Part shown: positions 22,008 to 32,680 of the stretch, one piece after another | How positions within the stretch are numbered: position 1 is the stretch's first letter | Layout: every line of letters starts with the position of its first letter | Source: Armatimonadota bacterium | GTDB lineage: Bacteria; Armatimonadota; UBA5829; DTJY01 | Reading direction: 5' to 3' | DNA length: 32,680 nucleotides | Assembly: GCA_017993055.1 (NCBI GenBank) | Contig: JAGONM010000037.1 | Coordinates: forward strand, 1-32,680 | The notes under the pieces: generated by a model | The model's input: the letters and a program-made list of their open reading frames with translations, nothing else | The model's database searches: none | What the model was told of the DNA's origin: nothing | Translations under genes and position numbers: made by a program

Positions 22008-23750
22008 ATGTCAGACGATCTGGAACCGCAAGAGACTACGGATGTCGAGGCGACAACCGTTTCCGAGGAGACAATCTCCGTCGAACCCGAATTGAACGTC
22101 GAGACAGGAGAACCGGCCGCTGAACCCCAGGAGGGGCCCTCTGAAGAGCCTCTCGGCGAAGTCGAGCAGGTTGCGGAACCGGGAGGAGTTTCTGGGGAAC
22201 CCTTAGGTGACGTCGAGCGGGTTGCGGAGGCGACAGGAGTCTCTGAGGAGCCTTCAGGCAGCGTCGAGCAGGTTGCGGAGGCGGAGGCCACCCCCGTAGC
22301 GCCCGCGCGGAAGAAGTCGGAAAGAACTCAGAAACCGCGATCCGAATCAGATATGGACTACTCCAACACTTTCCGCGAACTGACGGAGGGCGATGTAGTG
22401 CCCGGAGTGGTCGTTCACATAGATAAGGAAGGCGTTCTGGTAGACGTCGGCACGAAGTCCGAGGGCATAATCCGTCCTCACGAGTTGGCGACCAGTCCGT
22501 ACCAGTCGGCCGAGGACGTGGTCTCCGTTGGAGAGGAGATCAACGTCTACGTGATGGAGACCGAGAATCAGGATGGCAACCTGATTCTCTCAAAGAAGCG
22601 CGCGGATTTCGAGAAGGCTTGGGATAAGGTTCAGGCTGCGATGGAGGACAAGAGGGTCATCACCGCGATGGTGAATGATCGTGTCAAGGGTGGTCTGGTG
22701 GTGGATCTCGGCATCCGCGGATTCGTTCCTGCCTCTCACGTTGGCAGTGGGAAGGTCAAGAACCTGGAGAAGTACATCGGGCAGTCGTTGCCCCTCAAGG
22801 TGATCGAGGTTGACCGCGAGCGTCGCAAGGTCGTCCTCTCACACAGGCTCGCGACCGAAGAGGAGCGCGAGAAGAAGCGGGAGGAGACGGTCGCAGCGCT
22901 CACCGAGGGCCAGGTCAGGGACGGAGTCGTGCGGCGGATCACCGACTACGGCGCTTTCGTGGATCTGGGCGGCATTGACGGCCTGCTCCACATCAGCGAG
23001 ATGTCATGGACGCGGATCAACCACCCGTCCGAGGTCGTCAAGGTCGGACAGAAAATCCAGGTCGCTATATTGAAGCTCAACTTGGAGCAAGGCAGAGTAT
23101 CACTCGGCATGCGGCAGATTCTTCCCGATCCGTGGACCGTAGTTCCTGGGAGATATACGGTCGGGGAGACAATCGAGGTAACGATATCCAGGCTGGTTCC
23201 GTTCGGCGCGTTCGTCGCTCTCGAGGGTGGAATCGAAGCCATCATCCCGAACTCCGAACTCAGTAGGCGTCGTGTGAATCGGCCGGAGGACATCGTGTCC
23301 GTTGGCGAGACCGTCCAGGCCAAAGTCATTGACATCAAGCCGGAAGAGCGCCGCATGACCCTGAGCATTCGACAGATTCGTGAGGACAAGGAACGTGAAG
23401 AGTACGACAGCTACCGGCACTCGTCGCGGTCGTCGTCGCAGGATAGCGGTCGGATGACTCTGGGCGACCTGGTGGGATCGCAGTTGAAGGAGCTTCAGGC
23501 GGGCATGAAGCAGGAAACTCCTGCTGAAGAGCCTGTCGCGGAGGCGATTTCCGATTCTGATGCCGCGCAAGATGTGTCGAGCGTTGAGGACGTTGTCGAG
23601 AATGTCGTTGAGCCGGAAGCGGTTGTGGCGGAGCCTGAGCCGGAAGCCGTTGAGGAGTCTCCAGAGGAAGTTGCGGAGGCGACGTCTGAGGAGGCTGTCA
23701 TAGAGGGCCTGCCGGAGACCGAAACCGATGAAGGTGAGGCTGAGGCCTGA
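22008..23750 (+). CDS. rpsA: Ribosomal protein S1 homologue with four S1 domains
   Basis: 580 residues. Four S1 RNA-binding OB-folds: about 127-197 (TEGDVVPGVVVHIDKEGVLV), 214-281, 298-369 (VRRITDYGAFVDLGGIDGLL with HISEMSW) and 384-455 (ISRLVPFGAFVALEGGIEAI). The third is the most canonical. The protein should help bind mRNA on the 30S subunit; four-domain forms are typical outside Proteobacteria (E. coli has six). The first 115 residues are acidic and contain three 17-residue repeats; the last 80 are also very acidic (Glu/Val/Ala-rich). Acidic tails at both ends are unusual. ATG 22008 follows GAGAGGAG at nine bases. The gene is followed 51 bases later by coaE, a frequent type of housekeeping pairing. 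Confidence 0.9.
   Translation: MSDDLEPQETTDVEATTVSEETISVEPELNVETGEPAAEPQEGPSEEPLGEVEQVAEPGGVSGEPLGDVERVAEATGVSEEPSGSVEQVAEAEATPVAPARKKSERTQKPRSESDMDYSNTFRELTEGDVVPGVVVHIDKEGVLVDVGTKSEGIIRPHELATSPYQSAEDVVSVGEEINVYVMETENQDGNLILSKKRADFEKAWDKVQAAMEDKRVITAMVNDRVKGGLVVDLGIRGFVPASHVGSGKVKNLEKYIGQSLPLKVIEVDRERRKVVLSHRLATEEEREKKREETVAALTEGQVRDGVVRRITDYGAFVDLGGIDGLLHISEMSWTRINHPSEVVKVGQKIQVAILKLNLEQGRVSLGMRQILPDPWTVVPGRYTVGETIEVTISRLVPFGAFVALEGGIEAIIPNSELSRRRVNRPEDIVSVGETVQAKVIDIKPEERRMTLSIRQIREDKEREEYDSYRHSSRSSSQDSGRMTLGDLVGSQLKELQAGMKQETPAEEPVAEAISDSDAAQDVSSVEDVVENVVEPEAVVAEPEPEAVEESPEEVAEATSEEAVIEGLPETETDEGEAEA
22146..22298 (+). repeat. Three 51-bp tandem repeats inside the S1 gene
   Basis: Three in-frame units encode residues 47-63 (EPLGEVEQVAEPGGVSG), 64-80 (EPLGDVERVAEATGVSE) and 81-97 (EPSGSVEQVAEAEATPV). 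They are imperfect at DNA level but clearly alike (gtcgagcaggttgcggag and gtcgagcgggttgcggag). They extend the acidic N-terminal region. Confidence 0.85.
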
Positions 23751-23801: not shown

Positions 23802-24494
23802 ATGAGTCCTGATGGGGAAACCAGTTATGAGCCAGTCCGTGGGCAAGAGCCTGAACGGGCTGGCTCTTTCTCTTGCCGAAACACTCTGGTCGTGGGGCTT
23901 ACAGGCGGAGTGGCGTCGGGTAAGTCTACGGTGGCGCACATGCTGGAGGCCATGGGGGCCACTTGGATCAGCGCCGATGAAATCGTCCACGCGTTGCTCG
24001 CTCCGGGAACGGAGACTTCGAGTCAGGTGGCGAGGGAGTTCGGTTCTGAGGTGCTCTCTCCAAGCGGTGGAGTTGACCGCGGCAAGCTGGGGACGATCGT
24101 GTTCAGCGATGTCGAGAAGCGGCGTCGGCTTGAAGCGATCCTGCATCCGATCGTCATGAAGGAGATTTCCAGTAGCATAGAGAGGTTTCGAGACTGTGGG
24201 TCGGGAGTGCTGGTCGTTGAGGTCCCTCTTCTGGTAGAGATCGGGGCTGCAAGGATGTTCGATAAGATTCTGGTGGTGTCTGCGGAACAAGAGAGCCAGA
24301 TCAGCCGTCTACATAAGCGATGCAACCTGAACAGAGATGAAGCGGAACTGCGCCTCAAGGCGCAGTTGCCGATGAAGGACAAGATGCAGTTCGCTGACTG
24401 GGTTATCAGCACCGAAGGCACTCTGGCCGACACCAGAACGCGGGTGGAGAGACTCTGGTGTGACATTCAAGAGTGCCTTGCACTTGGGGAATAG
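23802..24494 (+). CDS. coaE: Dephospho-CoA kinase
   Basis: 230 residues. It phosphorylates dephospho-CoA with ATP, the last step of coenzyme A synthesis, in the cytoplasm. Motifs: P-loop VVGLTGGVASGKSTVAHML near residues 30-48, the ISADEIVHALL segment (family DADxIxH), ILHPIVMKEI, VVEVPLLVEIGAARMFDKIL, the lid region QISRLHKRCNLNRDEAELRL, KAQLPMKDKMQFADWVI. All are normal for CoaE. ATG 23802 gives an N-terminal extension of about 28 residues before the P-loop that most CoaE lack, and I see only a weak ribosome-binding site, so the true start may be further in, although no ATG, GTG or TTG with a good site is obvious. The length without the extension (about 200) is typical. Confidence 0.92.
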   Translation: MSPDGETSYEPVRGQEPERAGSFSCRNTLVVGLTGGVASGKSTVAHMLEAMGATWISADEIVHALLAPGTETSSQVAREFGSEVLSPSGGVDRGKLGTIVFSDVEKRRRLEAILHPIVMKEISSSIERFRDCGSGVLVVEVPLLVEIGAARMFDKILVVSAEQESQISRLHKRCNLNRDEAELRLKAQLPMKDKMQFADWVISTEGTLADTRTRVERLWCDIQECLALGE

Positions 24495-24506
24495 CTGTGC
24501 TATAAT
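24478..24506 (+). promoter_or_regulatory. Extended -10 promoter of the exported-protein operon
   Basis: TGC-TATAAT: TATAAT at 24501-24506 with TG at 24498-24499, and a partial -35, TTGCAC (24478-24483), at 17 bases. The -35 lies within the last codons of coaE. Predicted transcript start is about 24513. Confidence 0.65.
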
Positions 24507-24512
24507 CTCACG

Positions 24513-24844
24513 GTTCGCGGCAAGGCCCCGGTTTTGCGGGCTTGCGATGAGATTGATGCGCGGTTTACGGGACGTGCGCGTGCATCTTCCGAGCGGGTAG
24601 TTAGTCAGGGCATTCCATAACAATATGCGCCATTCCAAAGGACGGTAGACCGGGCTCGCCGAAAGCCGACAGCACTCCTTGATTCATCAGGAACAGCACC
24701 CCCCTTGGAATCAGCATGTTTGCCTTGGCCTCTGACGAGCCTGCCCCGTTAGAGCCGGGTGATTGGGCCTTCTGCGCAACCGTGATCCCGTCGAGATTAT
24801 CCGGCGACGTGCCGGGCCAAATCGTCTTAGGAGGACATATTCCT
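24513..24844 (+). other. 330-base leader/intergenic region with a bulged hairpin
   Basis: The gap from the coaE stop (24494) to GTG 24845 is 350 bases. Near the predicted transcript start lies a hairpin: GCAAGGCCC (24520-24528) with GGGCTTGC (24538-24545), eight pairs with one bulged G and a loop of nine. No T-run follows. Beyond it I see no RNA family and no convincing + strand gene before the signal peptide start. A 38-codon - strand reading frame (24601-24717) is open but unsupported. Most of the region is unexplained. Confidence 0.35.
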
Positions 24845-26731
24845 GTGAGACCATTCAGAAACCATGCCAGGCGCTGGCCGGTCAGCGCGCTGTGCATCGT
24901 CTCCCTCTGTGCAGCACTGTGCAGCGGACTGTTCTTCTCCACGCCGCTGCGGGCGCAGGTAGGCATTACGCAGGTCGCTGTCGTAGATTTCCGAAATTCG
25001 AGCAAGATGCCCGGACAGATGTTCGGGCGCATGGCAACAGATGCCGTGGTGCTCGAGCTCATCCGGTCAGGCAAGTTCGGCGTCGTCCCCAGTGATTCCC
25101 TGTCCGCCATGATGAACCAGCTCGGCTACGATGCGAATATGAGCCAATCCGCAATGATCCGTCTGGGCCAGGAAGTGGAAGCTTCGGCGGTTCTGAGTGG
25201 CGACGTCCTCTCCATCAACTTCGACAAAGACAAGAAGAAGGCGGAGGCGCGGATTGCCGTCAAACTTCTGGATGTAGCCTCGGGCGAGATGCTGAACGGC
25301 GCGGTTGCGACTGGGATCAGCCAGCCGCGAACCGGCTACACCGCAGATGAGGACAGGATGCTCGTCGAGGCGATCAAGGACGCCGCTCGAACGGCGGTTG
25401 AGACCATGGTTGCCTATACCATCCCTGAGGCGACCGTCCTGAACTCGGTGGGCACAAGCGAGGTACTCCTGAACAAGGGATCCCGGGAGGGGCTCCAGCC
25501 CGGCATGGAGATGATCGTCATCCGCCGGATGGATGGCGGCGAGGAAGTCGTCGGGCGCGTCAGGGTGAACAAGGTCAGCGACAGCGATGCCATGGCGACT
25601 ATTCTGAAGGCTCCGAGGGGTGTCAAGCCCGAGGACCGAGTGCGCGCCGTCTACAAGATGCCTGATATCAGCGACACTAGCCGCACCGTCGCACCGCGGT
25701 CATCCAGCAGGCCCAGCATCACGAGCGGGAACAAGCTTCTCATGGGCTTGGCGCTCATTATCGGCATAGGCGCGCTCTTTGGCAATCTGGGCGACAAACC
25801 GGAGTCGGTGAGCGGCGTTGCTGCGGCCGGAGCCACTCCCGACATCACTTCCGCGTTCGACGATGGCGGGGTCTTCATTGGCTGGAACGAGCCTAGGGGC
25901 GTCAGAACCTCGGATATCATAGAGTACCACGTTTGGCGTGACAATCACGGCAACTACTTCGCCAGCGGAGGGGAAGCCACGCTCGCCGGCCCGGTTCTGG
26001 TGCCTGACAGTGTGACAGCCACTCCCTACAACGGCGGAATAGGGCGTTTCGATCATCACAGCATTGATGATACAGCAGTTCGTCTGGATTATACGTGGAA
26101 CTACGTCGGTATAGATGGTGAGTTGGCTCAAGGCACACAAGCCAATATGCCAGGAATAACCGTTGGAAAGACTCACAAGTACTGGCTGTCCTGTGTGTAC
26201 CGCATTACTAGCCCGACGGATGGCAGCGTGGGGTACAAAGAGAGTACGCCGACGTATCTTGGCACGGCGACCTACGTGCTGCCCCCGGTGTGCGTGAGCC
26301 CGGATGCGACCACCGGTCTGCCCCTTAGCAGTATTACATTTGAATGGGAGTTGTCCGCGGGCGCCAACCGCTACCGGGTCGAGGTATCAACTAGCGATGA
26401 CTTCATCCGTGATCAGACCGTATGCTTTGACGTTAACCGGAGTACAGACCGGTTGACGGTTGACCTAAGGAGCCACCCGGAGTTGGCAGGTGTATTTGAT
26501 GGTCAGGAGCTGTTCTGGCGCGTGGGAGCCAAGAACAGTAATGACAGGCCTGGGCCAATGCCCTCGGGAAACGGTGCTTCCGCTGCGGCGACCGGGACGA
26601 AGAACACGCGGTATATCTACTCCACAGAGGCACTCAGTTTCTTTGTTGACGCACCTCCCGGCACCGGCCCCGGCGATGATGACGGCGGGGGCGACGACGG
26701 CGGCGGCCCTCCTCCGCCTCCGGATATCTGA
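24845..26731 (+). CDS. Exported CsgG/LpoB-like protein with C-terminal beta domain and D/G-P tail
   Basis: 628 residues. GTG 24845 with TAGGAGGA nine bases upstream gives a signal peptide (WPVSALCIVSLCAALCSGLF, cut near residue 37); the frame is open 43 codons further up but without a ribosome-binding site. Residues about 40-190 look like the CsgG/LpoB-type fold: ITQVAVVDFRNSS, ATDAVVLELIRSGKFGVVPS, SAVLSGDVLSINFD, IAVKLLDVASGEML. Residues about 200-270 (NKGSREGLQPGMEMIVIRRM) look like a small beta domain of the FlgT-C type. A single membrane helix follows (LLMGLALIIGIGALFG, about 298-313). The remainder resembles a fibronectin/Ig-like domain (VFIGWNEPRG, YHVWRDN; ITFEWELSAGANRYRVEVST). The tail is Asp/Gly-rich then five prolines. 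It heads the operon of exported proteins, 35 bases before the protease. Role inferred only: envelope assembly or secretion accessory. Confidence 0.68.
   Translation: MRPFRNHARRWPVSALCIVSLCAALCSGLFFSTPLRAQVGITQVAVVDFRNSSKMPGQMFGRMATDAVVLELIRSGKFGVVPSDSLSAMMNQLGYDANMSQSAMIRLGQEVEASAVLSGDVLSINFDKDKKKAEARIAVKLLDVASGEMLNGAVATGISQPRTGYTADEDRMLVEAIKDAARTAVETMVAYTIPEATVLNSVGTSEVLLNKGSREGLQPGMEMIVIRRMDGGEEVVGRVRVNKVSDSDAMATILKAPRGVKPEDRVRAVYKMPDISDTSRTVAPRSSSRPSITSGNKLLMGLALIIGIGALFGNLGDKPESVSGVAAAGATPDITSAFDDGGVFIGWNEPRGVRTSDIIEYHVWRDNHGNYFASGGEATLAGPVLVPDSVTATPYNGGIGRFDHHSIDDTAVRLDYTWNYVGIDGELAQGTQANMPGITVGKTHKYWLSCVYRITSPTDGSVGYKESTPTYLGTATYVLPPVCVSPDATTGLPLSSITFEWELSAGANRYRVEVSTSDDFIRDQTVCFDVNRSTDRLTVDLRSHPELAGVFDGQELFWRVGAKNSNDRPGPMPSGNGASAAATGTKNTRYIYSTEALSFFVDAPPGTGPGDDDGGGDDGGGPPPPPDI
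26660..26728 (+). repeat. Low-complexity Gly/Asp then Pro tract, CsgG-like protein C terminus
   Basis: Encodes a tail whose core is DDDGGGDDGGGPPPPP. Similar tracts occur in the next two genes (28018-28074 and 31848-31904). Confidence 0.85.
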
Positions 26732-26766
26732 TGCAGTCTTTCGTTGCAGGGAAAGCAGGGTAGGAG

Positions 26767-29700
26767 ATGACCAAGATACTTGGTAGAACGATAGTCAGGG
26801 GCACCAAGAGCCTCTTCCTCGTCTGCGGGATACTGATCGCCGTTCAGGGGTGGGCGGCGCAGGGTTTCGTCCGCCGGCCGGCTCCCTCTAGGGAATACGC
26901 GGCCAACCAGGTAATGGTGACGCTTCGTCCGGGATACACCGAGGCCGATCTATCGGCCTTGAATGCCGCTTACGGAAGTCGCGTCGTGCGGCGGCTTAGC
27001 AACGGCAGCACGTTTCTGCTGGATCTCCCGGGAAGCGGCGCGCCTTCCGAGTCGTTTGTGGCGAGCGGGTCTGCGATCGCGAGGAAATACCCTGCCGTCC
27101 AGGGTGTACAGCACAACTACTACCATGAGATAAAGGCCAGGCCGAACGACGAGTACTTCAACGCCTATTACGATACGCTGTCGAGGCTGATGGGTCAGTG
27201 GTACTTCCAGCCGGATCCCTCAGATGCCGCCATTAAGCACGTATATGCCACGGAGGCATGGGACCTGCAACAGGGCAGCAGCGACATCATCGTCGCCGTC
27301 ATCGACACCGGGATCAGGACGAAGAGCGCCCTCGGAGATGACGGCACGACCTACTATCGCACGCCGCATCCGGATCTCGTGGGCAGGCTGATTGTGGATC
27401 CTGCGCCGGTGCTCAGTCCGTACGGAGTGATCCCTCCCGACACCGCGATGGGGGATAACGACCCGTCGCCGCCTGAGAACGCCGGCGCCTATGTCGCAGC
27501 CCACGGCACAATGGTCGCCGGATTGATCGCGGCTCAAGGCGACAACACCATCGGCATCAGTGGGATGTGCTGGAACGGCGTCAAGATTCTGCCGGTCAAG
27601 GTCGCGACTGATGAGGATGGGCTTATCTGGGACGACGCCGTGTTTGACGCGCTGGAGTACTGCATAAGATATCGGGACACCGAGCTTACGTCGTCCGGCT
27701 TTCCCAAGCGAGTAAACGTGATCAACATGAGCTTTGGCCGCCAGACGCTGTGGCCGTCCACTCTGGTGTCGCAGATTCAGCGAGCTGCCGCCTCCGGAAT
27801 CATCCTGGTGTCTACGTCCGGCAACGAGTGGGAGTCCGGCCCGTACCCGCCGGACTATCCTGCGGCGCTGGATGAAGTGATCTGCGTAGGTAGCACGGAC
27901 AGGCGCGATGTGGTGAGTACCTTCTCCCAGCGGGGGCGAGCGCTCGATATCGTCGCTCCGGGAGAGGACGTCATAAGCACGGCCTTCAGTCCCTATCTGG
28001 CCGAGATTGGTCCCGTAGATTCGGGCGGCGGAGATAACGGGGGCGGCGGCGGTCCGCCGATAAACCCTCCCGGTTACTACCCTTCTCAGATTCAGGCGAT
28101 CGGTTCGCTCTTCCCTGACAAGTACGGCAACTACATCGCCGAGTTCATAAGCGGATCGTCTTTCGCGACGGCCATCGTGTCTGGCGCGGCCGCGTTGCTG
28201 ATGTCTCAGGGTGTTCCGGCTGCGGACGTGAAGAACATGCTCTACAGCACTGCTACGCCTAAGGGATTCGGCCGTCCGAACGAGACGTACGGCTGGGGGT
28301 TGCTGAACGTTCGCGCGGCGCTCGAAAAGGCCTCGATTGACGTCCAGATCCAGACTCCTGCGAAGTCGAGCGTTGTGACAAGTGCGCGCCCCAGGATTCG
28401 CATTGACTTCCGGCATGCCCTGGCCTCATCCATCCGAGTATGGCTCGACAAGGGCACGGCTGGCCAGGTGCTGCTCATCGGAGGATCGGGTGCGGCTATT
28501 CAGGATTGGAGCGGCTTGTACTACACGCTCGATGCGGCCGCCGGGAAGACCTATCTTCAGTTCGATTACCCGATCGCCGCCGGTTCACACACCATCACGG
28601 CTTCCGCAGACAGCGACATTCTTTTCGATTCGGAGCTTCCGGTCGCGGTATCGGCGGAGGACTCCAGTACCTTTATCGTTCGGGCCGCCACGCTGAATCC
28701 GGGCTGGCACATGTTCTCCGTGCCCTACAAGCTCGACAGTTCCGTTACCCCGGATCAGGTGATCGGAACGGGTTCGCAGCTGTGGAGGTACGCCTACACG
28801 GATGGAGAGAGCCCGCGGTATGCCGCATATGCATATGGAGCGCGCATGGACAACGAAGCGACGTTCCATCCTTACAGCGTCATCGCGAACCTGTCCGTTC
28901 GGCCGTCCGGTAGTGCTGTCGCCACGCCTCCGGCCGGTCTCGGCTACTGGCTGAGAGTTCGGAGTTCCGGTTGGACTCTGCCGGGTCTGAATCCGGCTAC
29001 GGCTTCCGAGGTGGGGGGCGGGCCTTATGAGATCGGGCTCTATAAGGGATGGAATATGGTTGGATGCCCGTACGTTTCGGCCGCTCCCTGGTCGAGCGCG
29101 CTGGTGGATTACGGCGGACTGCGCCTGACAGCGCAGGAAGCAGTCACGATGGGCTGGATTGGCAACTATATATACAGCTATGATCCTGTCAACCAGAGGT
29201 ATAGCACCGCGTCGGTGAGCAGTGCGGTGATGCAGCCCTGGCAGTCGCAGTGGGTGAAGGTCAAGGTGGATGCTCCGATTACGGCGCGCACGTACAACGC
29301 ATCCTTCCAGGGTACGTTTGGACTGACTACGGCGCCGGACTGCACGGGTCAGGTTGCATCGGACTGGTCTGCATTCGCGGCTAGCGGAGAGGCGCACTTC
29401 ACCGTTGGGTCCGTGGGTGTCACCGATGGTGTGTCCCAGAAAGTCATGCCGGCGAGTTCGGCCGGGTGGTTCGTTGGAGGCATCTACCAGCAGATAGCGG
29501 TTTTGCCCGGGCAGAGATACACCTTTTCGGCATGGACCAGGCGAGACATGAACTGCTCCGGAGTTTCGGGCACTTGCAGGTGGCCGTTCGGAGAAGGCAC
29601 TCAGGTCGGTATTGATCCGACCGGTGGTACCGACCCTCTCGCGTCGAGCGTTGTCTGGTCTTCAACCGAGTCCCTCGTCGGGGACTGGTCGCAGCAGCTC

Positions 29701-29862
29701 GCGTATGCGACCGCGCAGTCGTCAACCATGACGGTGTTTGTGGCGGCGTTTGCCGGTGCGCCCGGGACAGACCGTTCGGTCTACATTGACAACGCCCAGG
29801 TGTCAGGCGGGCATGACATCACGTTGATAGTCAACCCGGGCTATACCACCGATCGGCTCTGA
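26767..29862 (+). CDS. Secreted subtilisin-family (S8) serine protease with C-terminal adhesion-like modules
   Basis: 1031 residues. Signal peptide about 1-31 (SLFLVCGILIAVQGWAA). Residues 43-125 look like the fervidolysin-type propeptide/inhibitor (NQVMVTLRPGYTEADLSALN). The S8 domain (about 150-525) has Asp180 (VAVIDTG), His246 (AAHGTMVAGLIAA), oxyanion Asn353 (STSGNEWESG) and Ser465 (SGSSFATAIVSGAAALL): a complete catalytic set. A Gly/Asp/Pro tract (418-436) is inserted just before the catalytic Ser strand. After the protease come an Ig-like region (about 525-640), a GWNMxGxPY module (about 644-840, shared with the next protein) and a carbohydrate-binding-like beta-sandwich (about 845-1031). 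ATG 26767 follows GGGTAGGAG directly, so ribosome spacing is tight. It should be secreted and self-activating; substrate unknown. It overlaps or nearly abuts the next gene. Confidence 0.9.
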   Translation: MTKILGRTIVRGTKSLFLVCGILIAVQGWAAQGFVRRPAPSREYAANQVMVTLRPGYTEADLSALNAAYGSRVVRRLSNGSTFLLDLPGSGAPSESFVASGSAIARKYPAVQGVQHNYYHEIKARPNDEYFNAYYDTLSRLMGQWYFQPDPSDAAIKHVYATEAWDLQQGSSDIIVAVIDTGIRTKSALGDDGTTYYRTPHPDLVGRLIVDPAPVLSPYGVIPPDTAMGDNDPSPPENAGAYVAAHGTMVAGLIAAQGDNTIGISGMCWNGVKILPVKVATDEDGLIWDDAVFDALEYCIRYRDTELTSSGFPKRVNVINMSFGRQTLWPSTLVSQIQRAAASGIILVSTSGNEWESGPYPPDYPAALDEVICVGSTDRRDVVSTFSQRGRALDIVAPGEDVISTAFSPYLAEIGPVDSGGGDNGGGGGPPINPPGYYPSQIQAIGSLFPDKYGNYIAEFISGSSFATAIVSGAAALLMSQGVPAADVKNMLYSTATPKGFGRPNETYGWGLLNVRAALEKASIDVQIQTPAKSSVVTSARPRIRIDFRHALASSIRVWLDKGTAGQVLLIGGSGAAIQDWSGLYYTLDAAAGKTYLQFDYPIAAGSHTITASADSDILFDSELPVAVSAEDSSTFIVRAATLNPGWHMFSVPYKLDSSVTPDQVIGTGSQLWRYAYTDGESPRYAAYAYGARMDNEATFHPYSVIANLSVRPSGSAVATPPAGLGYWLRVRSSGWTLPGLNPATASEVGGGPYEIGLYKGWNMVGCPYVSAAPWSSALVDYGGLRLTAQEAVTMGWIGNYIYSYDPVNQRYSTASVSSAVMQPWQSQWVKVKVDAPITARTYNASFQGTFGLTTAPDCTGQVASDWSAFAASGEAHFTVGSVGVTDGVSQKVMPASSAGWFVGGIYQQIAVLPGQRYTFSAWTRRDMNCSGVSGTCRWPFGEGTQVGIDPTGGTDPLASSVVWSSTESLVGDWSQQLAYATAQSSTMTVFVAAFAGAPGTDRSVYIDNAQVSGGHDITLIVNPGYTTDRL
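28018..28074 (+). repeat. Gly/Asp/Pro tract inside the protease domain
   Basis: Encodes residues 418-436 (core GGGDNGGGGGPPINPP) as an insertion between the S8 strand DVISTAFSPYL and the catalytic Ser motif. Matches in style the tails of both neighbouring genes. Confidence 0.8.
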
Positions 29863-29897
29863 TGCGACGACGCGGCACGGGTTTACGGAGGATCATA

Positions 29898-31907
29898 TTG
29901 TTACAGCGAAATCACGCATCACTGACCTTCTTGCTTAGCGCGGCCGTGTTGCTGCTGCTTCCGACAGCTGCGTTGACGCAAGAGGACGTGGTTACGTCGA
30001 TATCCATGAATAACAGTTTCGTCGGCGTGACCATATATCAGAGCGGCGCGGACTCCTCCGGGCGCTTTTCGATATGGAACGTCGAGGGCGATCCCTCCAG
30101 TTCCATGGACGACCATGAGTCCGTGGTTGACTGGGGATCGGTCCGCCTCATGATAGATATGCTGCCGGAGGACGAGGACACACTTGGCAAGGTGTGGGCG
30201 ACGTTCGAGAAGGGCGGCAGTCTCGGCATCTGGGGTGACGCTGGTGACGGCTCCTGGTTGCTTGTGCCAAGCCTTGTGCCGAACCAGAAGGCGATCAGGG
30301 GAATCTGGCAGCCGGTTCCTGCCGAAGGAGTTCTGGGGCCGATCACCTTCGAACAGGAGGTCAGGCTGCTGCACGACATGGTTCGCTTCAAGTGGACGAT
30401 CACGAACAATGACGCGGTCTCGCACCAGGTCGGGGTCAGGATTGACGGTGACATATTTGTCGAGCCGCAGAATACCGGCGTGCTCAATCAGCGAAATGCC
30501 GTCAGCATTCCGGGCTATCCTCTTGTGGAAGAGCGCACCTTGATCTCGTCTCCACAGATTCCGGCTTACGTGGACTTCTACAACGGTGTGAGCGATCCGT
30601 CGAGAGCAGCTCGCATCGTTCTTGAAGGCAACAGCGCGGCCAAACCCGATATGCTGGGCATCGATGAATACTCGGCGCTGTCATCCAGTGCATGGTCGTA
30701 CGTTGCTGATCCGCTGAGCACATCGCTCGTTCCGAAGTTCATCTGGGGATACGAGATTTGGCCTGAACACCAATACATCACCAACAATCTGGGATATGCG
30801 GCGTTCTGGAAACCGGTCACCGTCGCCGCCGGGAAGAGTCGGACCATCATCCACTACATCGGCAATCCGGCGTGGAATAGCTCTGTCAACTTGCCGAGCA
30901 TTGACCGCCCGGTGTATGCGGCATCCGTCAACGGGCCGGTCGCTCTGAAATACTATGTGGATGAGATCACCGGCGAGGAGGTCTACGGTCCGGAGACATT
31001 CCGGATCACGGCCTCTCTGGAGAACCAGGACTCGGCGACGAACCTGACGAACTGCGGGTTCACCTTGATCCTGCCTTCCGGTCTGGCTCTGGACTCTTCG
31101 GAGCCACAGGCGACCAAGAGCATACCGCTGATCGGCGCTAACAGTGAGAGTTCGGTTTCCTGGCTCGTCAGGGCCACCGGCGCGAAGACAGGCTTGTTGA
31201 CTTACTACGTTTCCGTCAATGCCTATCCGATGGGCGGGACGATCTTGCGCCGCGATATCAACGTTCCGGCGATATCCACGCGTTCGCTGACCTATGGCTG
31301 GCAGCAGTTCTCGGTGCCGTTCTTGCTGACGAGCACCAGCCCGAGTTCGCTCGGACTGATGCCGGGCAGCATGATCAAGATGTTCCGATACGACACGAGT
31401 CTGCCCAGGAGCGCACCTTACTACCCCTATGAGGAAGTCCTGAGCGTCACCCCCGGAGAAGCATACTGGCTGAAGATGGCTGTTCCATCTCAGACCGACA
31501 TGACGCCCGGCACGTACGCGCCTCTACAATGGCAGGGCGGTACAGGTCACATGATCCCGGTGCGTCGGGGTTGGAACATGATAGGAAACCCGTATGTGTA
31601 CATCGTGACCATGGGCGAGTTGAAGTTCTATGCTCCTGCCTACGGGATACTGACGTACGATGAAGCCATCGCGAAGCGGATGATCAGCCGGACGCTGTAC
31701 TCCTGGAACACGACCTTCAATACCTGGAACTGGTCCACTCTGCGCAGCGCTCCACTGACGCCGTGGCAGGGATACTGGTTCAAACTGCTGGACGATCGAG
31801 TTGAGGCGATTGTCATTTCCCCAGCAGCGCAGATAGGCGCCAGCGTGGGCGGTTCGCCGCCGGACGACGGCGGTGACGATGGGGGTGGGCCGCCGCCCAT
31901 TCCGTAG
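29898..31907 (+). CDS. Secreted protein with GWNMxGxPY module and D/G-P tail
   Basis: 669 residues from TTG 29898, which has GGAGG six bases upstream and gives a signal peptide (ASLTFLLSAAVLLLLPTAAL, cut before QEDVV). ATG 29862 in the same frame overlaps the protease stop (TGATG) but has no ribosome-binding site; it would add 12 residues. The region to about residue 330 is beta-rich (FKWTITNNDAVSHQVGVRID) and I cannot assign it to a family. Residues about 360-455 look like a CARDB/Ig-like domain (TASLENQDSATNLTNCGFTL). Residues about 466-640 are the module shared with the upstream protease: YGWQQFSVPF, MFRYD, GEAYWLK, RRGWNMIGNPYV, LTYDEAIAKRMI, LTPWQGYWFKL. The C terminus is another Asp/Gly then Pro tract. 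No catalytic motif is seen. Confidence 0.78.
   Translation: MLQRNHASLTFLLSAAVLLLLPTAALTQEDVVTSISMNNSFVGVTIYQSGADSSGRFSIWNVEGDPSSSMDDHESVVDWGSVRLMIDMLPEDEDTLGKVWATFEKGGSLGIWGDAGDGSWLLVPSLVPNQKAIRGIWQPVPAEGVLGPITFEQEVRLLHDMVRFKWTITNNDAVSHQVGVRIDGDIFVEPQNTGVLNQRNAVSIPGYPLVEERTLISSPQIPAYVDFYNGVSDPSRAARIVLEGNSAAKPDMLGIDEYSALSSSAWSYVADPLSTSLVPKFIWGYEIWPEHQYITNNLGYAAFWKPVTVAAGKSRTIIHYIGNPAWNSSVNLPSIDRPVYAASVNGPVALKYYVDEITGEEVYGPETFRITASLENQDSATNLTNCGFTLILPSGLALDSSEPQATKSIPLIGANSESSVSWLVRATGAKTGLLTYYVSVNAYPMGGTILRRDINVPAISTRSLTYGWQQFSVPFLLTSTSPSSLGLMPGSMIKMFRYDTSLPRSAPYYPYEEVLSVTPGEAYWLKMAVPSQTDMTPGTYAPLQWQGGTGHMIPVRRGWNMIGNPYVYIVTMGELKFYAPAYGILTYDEAIAKRMISRTLYSWNTTFNTWNWSTLRSAPLTPWQGYWFKLLDDRVEAIVISPAAQIGASVGGSPPDDGGDDGGGPPPIP
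31848..31904 (+). repeat. Gly/Asp then Pro tract at C terminus
   Basis: Encodes a tail with core DDGGDDGGGPPPIP, matching the tail of the CsgG-like protein two genes upstream. Confidence 0.85.
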
Positions 31908-31973
31908 GGGTATTGCACTGCCGCAGAGCATCGGCTGGCCCATGTTTCTAGCTCTCTTGAGGTATTTAATAGT

Positions 31974-32680
31974 ATGCGAAAACTCACTCTGAATCTGATC
32001 ATAGCAGTCGCGATGGTGGTCGTGCTGGCGCTTGGCGCTCACGCGGCTTCCATCACGGATCTCTACGTGACTCCACAGCCGGAGGGCGCGGAGGGGGATG
32101 ACGTTCCCGGAGAGGGAACGTCCAACTCCATATTCACGATCCAGTTCAACTGGCATCAGGAAGATGGGCGCTTCCCGGACGCCAACTCTCTGGAGCTGTG
32201 CGTGTACACTCCCTATGTCGGCTCGACTTGCTACAGACTGCCGCACAATGCGGGAAGGGGCAATCCGGCTTCCGGCGAGGGCAGGCTGTACGAGTTTCGC
32301 ATGACTGCGGGCGTCAACCTGGCGAATGAGGGTATTCCCGGCACGTTCAACCCCGGACACCCGATACCGGATATGGTGGACGTCTTCTACATCCCGATAC
32401 TCAAGGCCGGTCCCGATGGAGCGGCCAATCAGATCACGCTTCTTGTGAGGGCGCGCTATACCGACCCTACTGAAGAGGACGCGGAGCCCGAACTGATAGA
32501 GGAATCTACTGACGTCATCATCCACGACTCCCATCCCCATAGCTCGGACAGATACGCGGGCGTTTCCTACGACAGGGATTTCCTCTACGCCTACTACGGC
32601 TATCAGACGCCCGGGCCCTACCCGATCAATACCTACGCGATCAACGAGAACTTCCAGTGGCGCAACCCGGACGATCCATC
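31974..32680 (+). CDS. Secreted protein of unknown function, 3' partial
   Basis: The frame is open from ATG 31974 to the end of the window (235 full codons, no stop). GAGG lies 11 bases upstream. A textbook signal peptide (LNLIIAVAMVVVLALGAHA) precedes a mature part that starts ASITDLYVTPQPEGAEGDDV. The visible part is beta-rich with pairs such as LELCVYTPYVGSTCYRL and ITLLVRARYTDPTEEDAEPE, and an aromatic stretch YDRDFLYAYYGYQTPGPY. I recognise no family. The gap from the preceding gene is 66 bases without a clear promoter or terminator, so it is probably the fourth gene of the exported-protein operon. Confidence 0.72.
   Translation, partial: MRKLTLNLIIAVAMVVVLALGAHAASITDLYVTPQPEGAEGDDVPGEGTSNSIFTIQFNWHQEDGRFPDANSLELCVYTPYVGSTCYRLPHNAGRGNPASGEGRLYEFRMTAGVNLANEGIPGTFNPGHPIPDMVDVFYIPILKAGPDGAANQITLLVRARYTDPTEEDAEPELIEESTDVIIHDSHPHSSDRYAGVSYDRDFLYAYYGYQTPGPYPINTYAINENFQWRNPDDP

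Follow-up and report, generated by a model that had tools for sequence, protein, structure and literature searches.

A conserved envelope locus of Armatimonadota that may place proteins with a shared C-terminal module at the cell surface

Gene content of the locus

The DNA analyzed here (the window, 32,680 nucleotides) makes up contig C37 in an 82-contig assembly of a 3.72-Mb genome (G000). Its last part holds four consecutive open reading frames for exported proteins on the plus strand, separated by gaps of 35, -1 and 66 bases, which bears out the arrangement described in an earlier note on this sequence. Gene calling followed a simple longest-ORF rule, and the hydrophobic N-terminal segments that give all four proteins the look of signal-peptide carriers were judged by eye. 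The features referred to below are the following:

22008-23750, plus strand: S1-domain protein, upstream neighbour kept beside the locus in most relatives
23802-24494, plus strand: coaE, upstream neighbour kept beside the locus in most relatives
24498-24506, plus strand: extended -10 promoter-like site TGCTATAAT just past the coaE stop, a sequence pattern only
24829-24847, plus strand: Shine-Dalgarno AGGAGG (24829-24834) and GTG start (24845) of CS; homologues begin at the same residue
24845-26731, plus strand: CS, CsgG/LpoB-like protein (Pfam LpoB, E 1.1e-9, and homologue alignment)
24974-25291, plus strand: LpoB-like (CsgG-superfamily) domain of CS, residues 87-192 of the 24716 frame
25736-25792, plus strand: hydrophobic 19-residue helix of CS, LLMGLALIIGIGALFGNLG (scan of homologues)
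26767-29862, plus strand: S8 (subtilisin-family) protease (Pfam Peptidase_S8, E 1.4e-43)
27280-28299, plus strand: S8 catalytic domain with D180, H246, N353 and S465 intact
28696-29262, plus strand: module copy 1, protease residues 644-832
29862-31907, plus strand: partner protein (PA), start overlapping the protease stop, no Pfam family
29973-31046, plus strand: galactose-mutarotase-like supersandwich of the partner, residues ~38-395 (fold match)
31290-31787, plus strand: module copy 2, partner residues 477-642
31974-32678, plus strand: fourth gene, first 235 residues, cut by the contig end; N-terminus 36% identical to the giant of L032
32554-32680, plus strand: exact 127-base overlap of the end of C37 with the start of contig C21 (sequence identity)

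The S1-domain gene and coaE are not thought to be members of the system. For CS, the ATG at 24716 given by the mechanical list of open reading frames was rejected as the start, since it lies upstream of the starts of the homologues. The site TGCTATAAT is a candidate operon promoter with a poor -35 element and was missed by the consensus scan. The promoter scan, which like the terminator scan gave results no better than those from shuffles, found no good plus-strand promoter between the locus genes.

The fourth gene continues on C21 (L100:3-5654), where it completes an exported giant of about 2,077 residues. It is followed by two small CsgG-like proteins (274 and 240 residues), a 649-residue Big_1+LptD-like protein whose N-terminus is a Big_1/Invasin_D3 domain, and uvrB, all of which were supplied by the downstream extension that the earlier note had called for. 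The 127-base identity looks like the kind of overlap left by assemblers, and the join is supported because L032, from genome G004, has the identical gene order on one contig.

CS is composed, in order, of an LpoB/CsgG-superfamily domain, an SH3-like domain, a hydrophobic helix, two Fn3-like domains and an Asp/Gly/Pro-rich tail. Pfam LpoB scores 38.7 bits (cut-off 22.3), whereas the LpoB equivalog TIGR02722 reaches 39.8 bits against a cut-off of 110.55. Pfam CsgG (PF03783) matches nothing in the whole genome while the controls match, and the identity of CS as a CsgG pore was rejected on that ground. Moreover, the CsgG-superfamily domain is LpoB-sized (about 150 residues), and the homologue alignment reveals in it none of the long inserts in which pore-forming hairpins like those of CsgG would be expected. 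Sequence comparison therefore assigns CS to the LpoB type rather than to CsgG, contrary to the proposal that a CsgG-like protein positions or exports the protease, and the candidate for an outer-membrane channel becomes the LptD-like protein downstream instead. The SH3-like domain, with a weak TsaP match (E 0.28), recalls FlgT; unlike LpoB, CsgG and FlgT, CS shows no visible lipobox and continues with the hydrophobic helix and the Fn3-like domains. This helix is found in 56 of 56 distinct homologues, with a mean hydropathy of at least 1.6 in 43, and both small CsgG-like proteins terminate in a similar one. Summed across homologues, the charge is +109 before the helix and +16 after it, a pattern that appears to oppose the positive-inside rule for a simple stop-transfer helix. 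The Asp/Gly/Pro-rich C-terminal tail is common to CS and the partner (ending in GDDDGGGDDGGGPPPPPDI and DDGGDDGGGPPPIP, respectively), with a related insert in the protease.

Two relatives of these proteins were encountered elsewhere. A paralogue on contig C30 (G000:C30:29250-30143; L050:18548-19894) is 70% identical to CS residues 365-671 and has the same tail in a different neighbourhood. An open frame in genome G036 (L105:1-5533), 1,844 residues or longer, fits the small CsgG-like profile in its first part and the Big_1+LptD-like profile after that, and is possibly a fusion of the two.

The partner consists of a mutarotase-like supersandwich, an Ig-like segment, the shared module and the Asp/Gly/Pro tail. 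Its AF2 model (pLDDT 79.8, pTM 0.79) aligns with GalM (4bze) with a VIA Z of 17.7 and an rmsd of 3.0 over 225 residues; by sequence, significant matches in the PDB were confined to the FlgD-like ends of longer homologues. Judging from the modelled fold, the partner probably binds glycan. The giant is mostly sequence without an assigned domain; some giants have an Ig-like domain, and the module lies near the C-terminus.

Conservation across Armatimonadota and the protease slot

Of 291 Armatimonadota genomes, 275 have a match to the CS profile, including 191 of the 194 good ones. Gene order was counted manually in 67 non-duplicate loci, a sample skewed toward available genomes, most of which are MAGs. 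The order CS-S8 protease-partner was found in 41 loci, CS-other protease fold-partner in 6 and CS-partner without protease in 15; of the remainder, one has the S8 protease without partner and four have neither. The partner comes after CS, with or without a protease in between, in 62 of the 67 loci, the LptD-like gene lies on the CS strand wherever both are present (38 of 38), and the LptD-like protein is matched in all 31 genomes searched. All ten loci read in the Fimbriimonadaceae-like family f16 have the order CS-partner-LptD-like, and Chthonomonadia and Fimbriimonadia loci carry a module protein of about 1,800-1,950 residues upstream of CS. The locus proteins are roughly 25-50% identical across many families of the phylum. 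Because the gene order recurs in so many families, a chance arrangement is excluded; there is strong support for a dedicated system of linked genes, and a look for scattered genes in relatives came out in favour of linkage. As far as genome sequences tell, this conservation makes the gene set and its order a phylum-core envelope locus.

Two short peptide patterns, whose scan across 84,980 species genomes is no proof of absence elsewhere, gave named matches in Armatimonadota (among them Chthonomonas calidirosea and Fimbriimonadales) or in MAGs that are untyped or carry odd labels and have this locus too. Two MAG contigs titled Actinomycetota (L086 and L088, SYKE/SYMT) contain the locus; this label looks wrong because the L088 contig equals G032:C313, which is placed in Armatimonadota, in both length and gene order. 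Genome G003, from the same family as the window and 97% complete, has module and LptD-like matches and no CS match, possibly through natural loss or an assembly gap.

The protease is built from a prodomain (Fervidolysin prodomain in Pfam, E 3.8e-4), the S8 catalytic domain, the shared module and a C-terminal domain. The catalytic D, H, N and S are kept in 54 of 54 aligned S8 homologues, two divergent ones (L106 and L114) having been left out. In other lineages the same slot, on the same C-terminal chassis, is taken by an M6 domain with HExxH (L105, L115, L142), by M6-like proteins without HExxH (L107:8167-11172 and L108:8565-11648) or by a C11-like protein (L110) whose catalytic residues, by eye, are apparently lost. 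The N-terminus of the L107 slot protein matches the M6 domain of L142 (blastp E 1.7e-21) with HExxH absent and matches nothing in the PDB; the L107 and L108 proteins are likely pseudoproteases retained in the slot. In all, three slots look catalytically dead. The protease was thus rejected as a core component, the slot being S8, M6, C11, sometimes degenerate, or empty (15 of 67 loci). The label of a protease system does not hold either, given that CS, the partner and the LptD-like protein persist. What the slot clearly shows is how one catalytic domain can replace another while the place in the genome stays fixed, with three folds on one chassis.

Two known arrangements resemble this one. In the dentilisin complex of Treponema (PrtP/PrcB/PrcA), a surface S8 protease is likewise encoded with partner proteins; the protease of the window, however, scores 95.9 bits with the PrtP model (NF033595, cut-off 300), and the partner here has a mutarotase-like fold. 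In type VII secretion the mycosin is an S8 protease beside a secretion apparatus, a likeness offset by a score of 132 bits where the cut-off is 279 and by the absence of visible ESX genes in the locus.

The shared module and the LptD-like protein

The module is about 175 residues long, falls into two halves (GW..P and GYW motifs) and corresponds to no family in Pfam or NCBIfam; its profile was iterated within these loci. A third copy lies in the giant, near the C-terminus. The earlier note had the first three proteins tied together by shared modules and low-complexity tracts: the module is real and links the protease, the partner and the fourth protein, but not CS, which has only its tail in common with the partner and the related insert of the protease. 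In this genome the profile has 21 matches, against 0-15 in its searched relatives. About 17 secreted proteins of this genome outside the locus share the module, and in 16 exported ones it ends 11-18 residues short of the stop; the consensus is ...YWWD...PWHGYW...DLALIVP. These bearers are otherwise unrelated and include GHL10 hydrolases, polysaccharide deacetylases and a C39-like peptidase. Since the module is genome-wide, it was rejected as proof of an exclusive gene set, which led to the idea of a C-terminal tag.

From its sequence and position, the module looks like a C-terminal sorting domain. What follows it in the locus proteins is mostly a stretch of at most 70 residues or one of notably uniform length, about 270, that ends in FlgD_ig; the protease and giant of the window are intermediate (199 and 167 residues). 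The frequent extension of about 270 residues was counted against a sorting tag, and the module could serve in sugar binding instead. In a region of contig C5 (G000:C5:76040-86655; L146, L147), a cluster of exported proteins, several of GHL10 type, was found to be entirely module-ended; two of them are recent duplicates, as their end sequences are almost identical.

The profile of the Big_1+LptD-like protein matches LptD (7omm) in the PDB with E 0.0024 over residues 185-368. The AF2 model of a homologue from L063 (seven sequences, pLDDT 74, pTM 0.41) shows Big_1, jelly-roll and barrel in succession, and LptD accounts for every one of its 14 best Foldseek matches (E 9e-12 to 4e-9). The identification rests on Foldseek and the sequence profile, because re-ranking with VIA puts other large barrels on top, with LptD within about 3 Z units. 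On the modelled structure, the last locus protein is LptD-like, with a jelly-roll followed by an LptD-type barrel as in LptD itself. It differs from LptD of the LptDE complex in its N-terminal Big_1 (invasin-type) domain, in escaping detection by Pfam LptD (PF04453, no match in the 31 genomes; among 14 controls only E. coli and Caulobacter match), and in its location among surface-protein genes, away from lptA/C/F/G. Moreover, lptF/G are present in 31 of 31 genomes, and in this genome they are directly adjoined by a separate gene for an 803-residue protein with a weak LptD_N match; similar weak matches occur near lptF/G in relatives. Because of this gene, the Big_1+LptD-like protein is a second LptD-type protein and not obviously the LPS one. 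Core LPS genes have been reported from Armatimonadetes (PMC5007114).

Further Big_1 proteins lie outside the main locus. Contig C17 of this genome (L144:3833-8017) encodes a second Big_1+LptD-like paralogue (682 residues) beside a Big_1-repeat protein (686 residues). Downstream of the locus in G036 (L117, G036:C82:95000-107000), an open frame of about 4,000 residues with more than 35 Big_1-type repeats fills 12 kb and runs off both ends.

Possible roles of the locus

We tentatively read the locus as a phylum-specific machine that would deliver proteins carrying the module to the cell surface and in which the LptD-like protein would be the outer-membrane component; we regard this as quite possible, if still short of probable. 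The transport mechanism that we infer would be as follows. Sec would take proteins across the inner membrane; an outer-membrane assembly, formed by the LptD-like protein and the three LpoB/CsgG-type proteins, would recognize the module as a sorting or anchoring tag; the protease-fold protein of the slot, itself module-tagged, would process or seat the clients, and the partner and the giant would be resident surface proteins. A fuller version is put forward with reserve, as a possibility: an export or anchoring route of the Armatimonadota's own at the outer membrane, in which a second, Big_1-bearing LptD-type barrel and LpoB/CsgG-type partners would handle proteins with an undescribed C-terminal module, the protease domain being swapped between S8, M6 and C11 on one C-terminal chassis.

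The closest analogue in working style appears to be the type IX secretion system (T9SS), and the locus may work like such C-terminal-domain secretion. The T9SS has outer-membrane barrels and exports numerous enzymes that have one C-terminal domain in common, a domain borne also by its surface protease PorU. Here, too, a predicted outer-membrane barrel goes together with a module near the C-termini of many exported enzymes and with a putative surface protease that has this module itself, and the FlgD_ig ends of locus proteins resemble T9SS tails. On the other hand, the module is a different domain, and an LptD-like barrel with LpoB-type proteins stands in place of SprA and PorK/L/M/N. SprA exceeded the cut-off in none of the 31 genomes, with short local matches in 9; the control was uninformative, as no control genome matched either.

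Further points were counted against the machine. To our knowledge, LptD moves LPS only, which speaks against protein export through an LptD-like barrel. The CS helix seems, from its sequence, hydrophobic enough for an inner-membrane stop, so the placement of CS in an outer-membrane assembly is tentative. Finally, four genomes (G010, G013, G025, G029) keep CS and the LptD-like protein with a single module match each.

The strongest rival agrees with the machine in giving the locus a function at the cell surface. The genes could form a surface-layer operon, in which giant, partner and protease would be coat and maturation protease, the LptD-like protein would deliver a glycolipid anchor, and the module would be a glycan- or LPS-binding anchor, with no protein passing the barrel. 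The giants of 1,500-3,800 residues in most loci, the sugar-binding type of the partner fold and the insertion of LPS by known LptD proteins all suit this explanation, as does the existence of the Lpt pathway and LPS genes in the phylum (PMC5007114). Against it, the module at the C-termini of many unrelated exported enzymes suits general sorting or anchoring more than a single coat, and the f16 loci show no giant between partner and barrel. We consider it a serious possibility, though some way from probable.

A variant locus for LPS transport, with the Big_1+LptD-like protein as the working LptD, a small CsgG/LpoB-type protein replacing LptE and the surface proteins riding along, would account for the LptD-like fold, the near-universal presence and the weak Pfam LptE matches of CS (E 0.02) and a small CsgG-like protein (E 0.014). 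It is unlikely in view of the other LptD_N-like gene beside lptF/G and its counterparts in relatives, and it leaves the linkage of protease, partner and giant unexplained. Export of a dedicated protease and partner by a CsgG-type pore, as the earlier note had it, agrees with their position next to a CsgG-superfamily protein in most loci; it is very improbable in the face of an LpoB-type domain without a Pfam CsgG match, of the loci that do without a protease and of the dead slots. That unrelated exported genes merely happen to lie between the housekeeping genes coaE and uvrB, which do flank the locus, is refuted by the synteny of these diverged proteins over many families and can be set aside.

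Nearly every genome of the phylum has this locus, and no description of it was found in the open papers searched. If the machine proposed above is the true reading, a C-terminal-domain route of export or anchoring would exist outside Bacteroidota, and an LptD-type barrel would gain a role tied to surface proteins. It would also make testable what the Armatimonadota surface contains and how the many secreted carbohydrate enzymes arrive there. The locus may thus bring proteins to the cell surface by a route not yet described.
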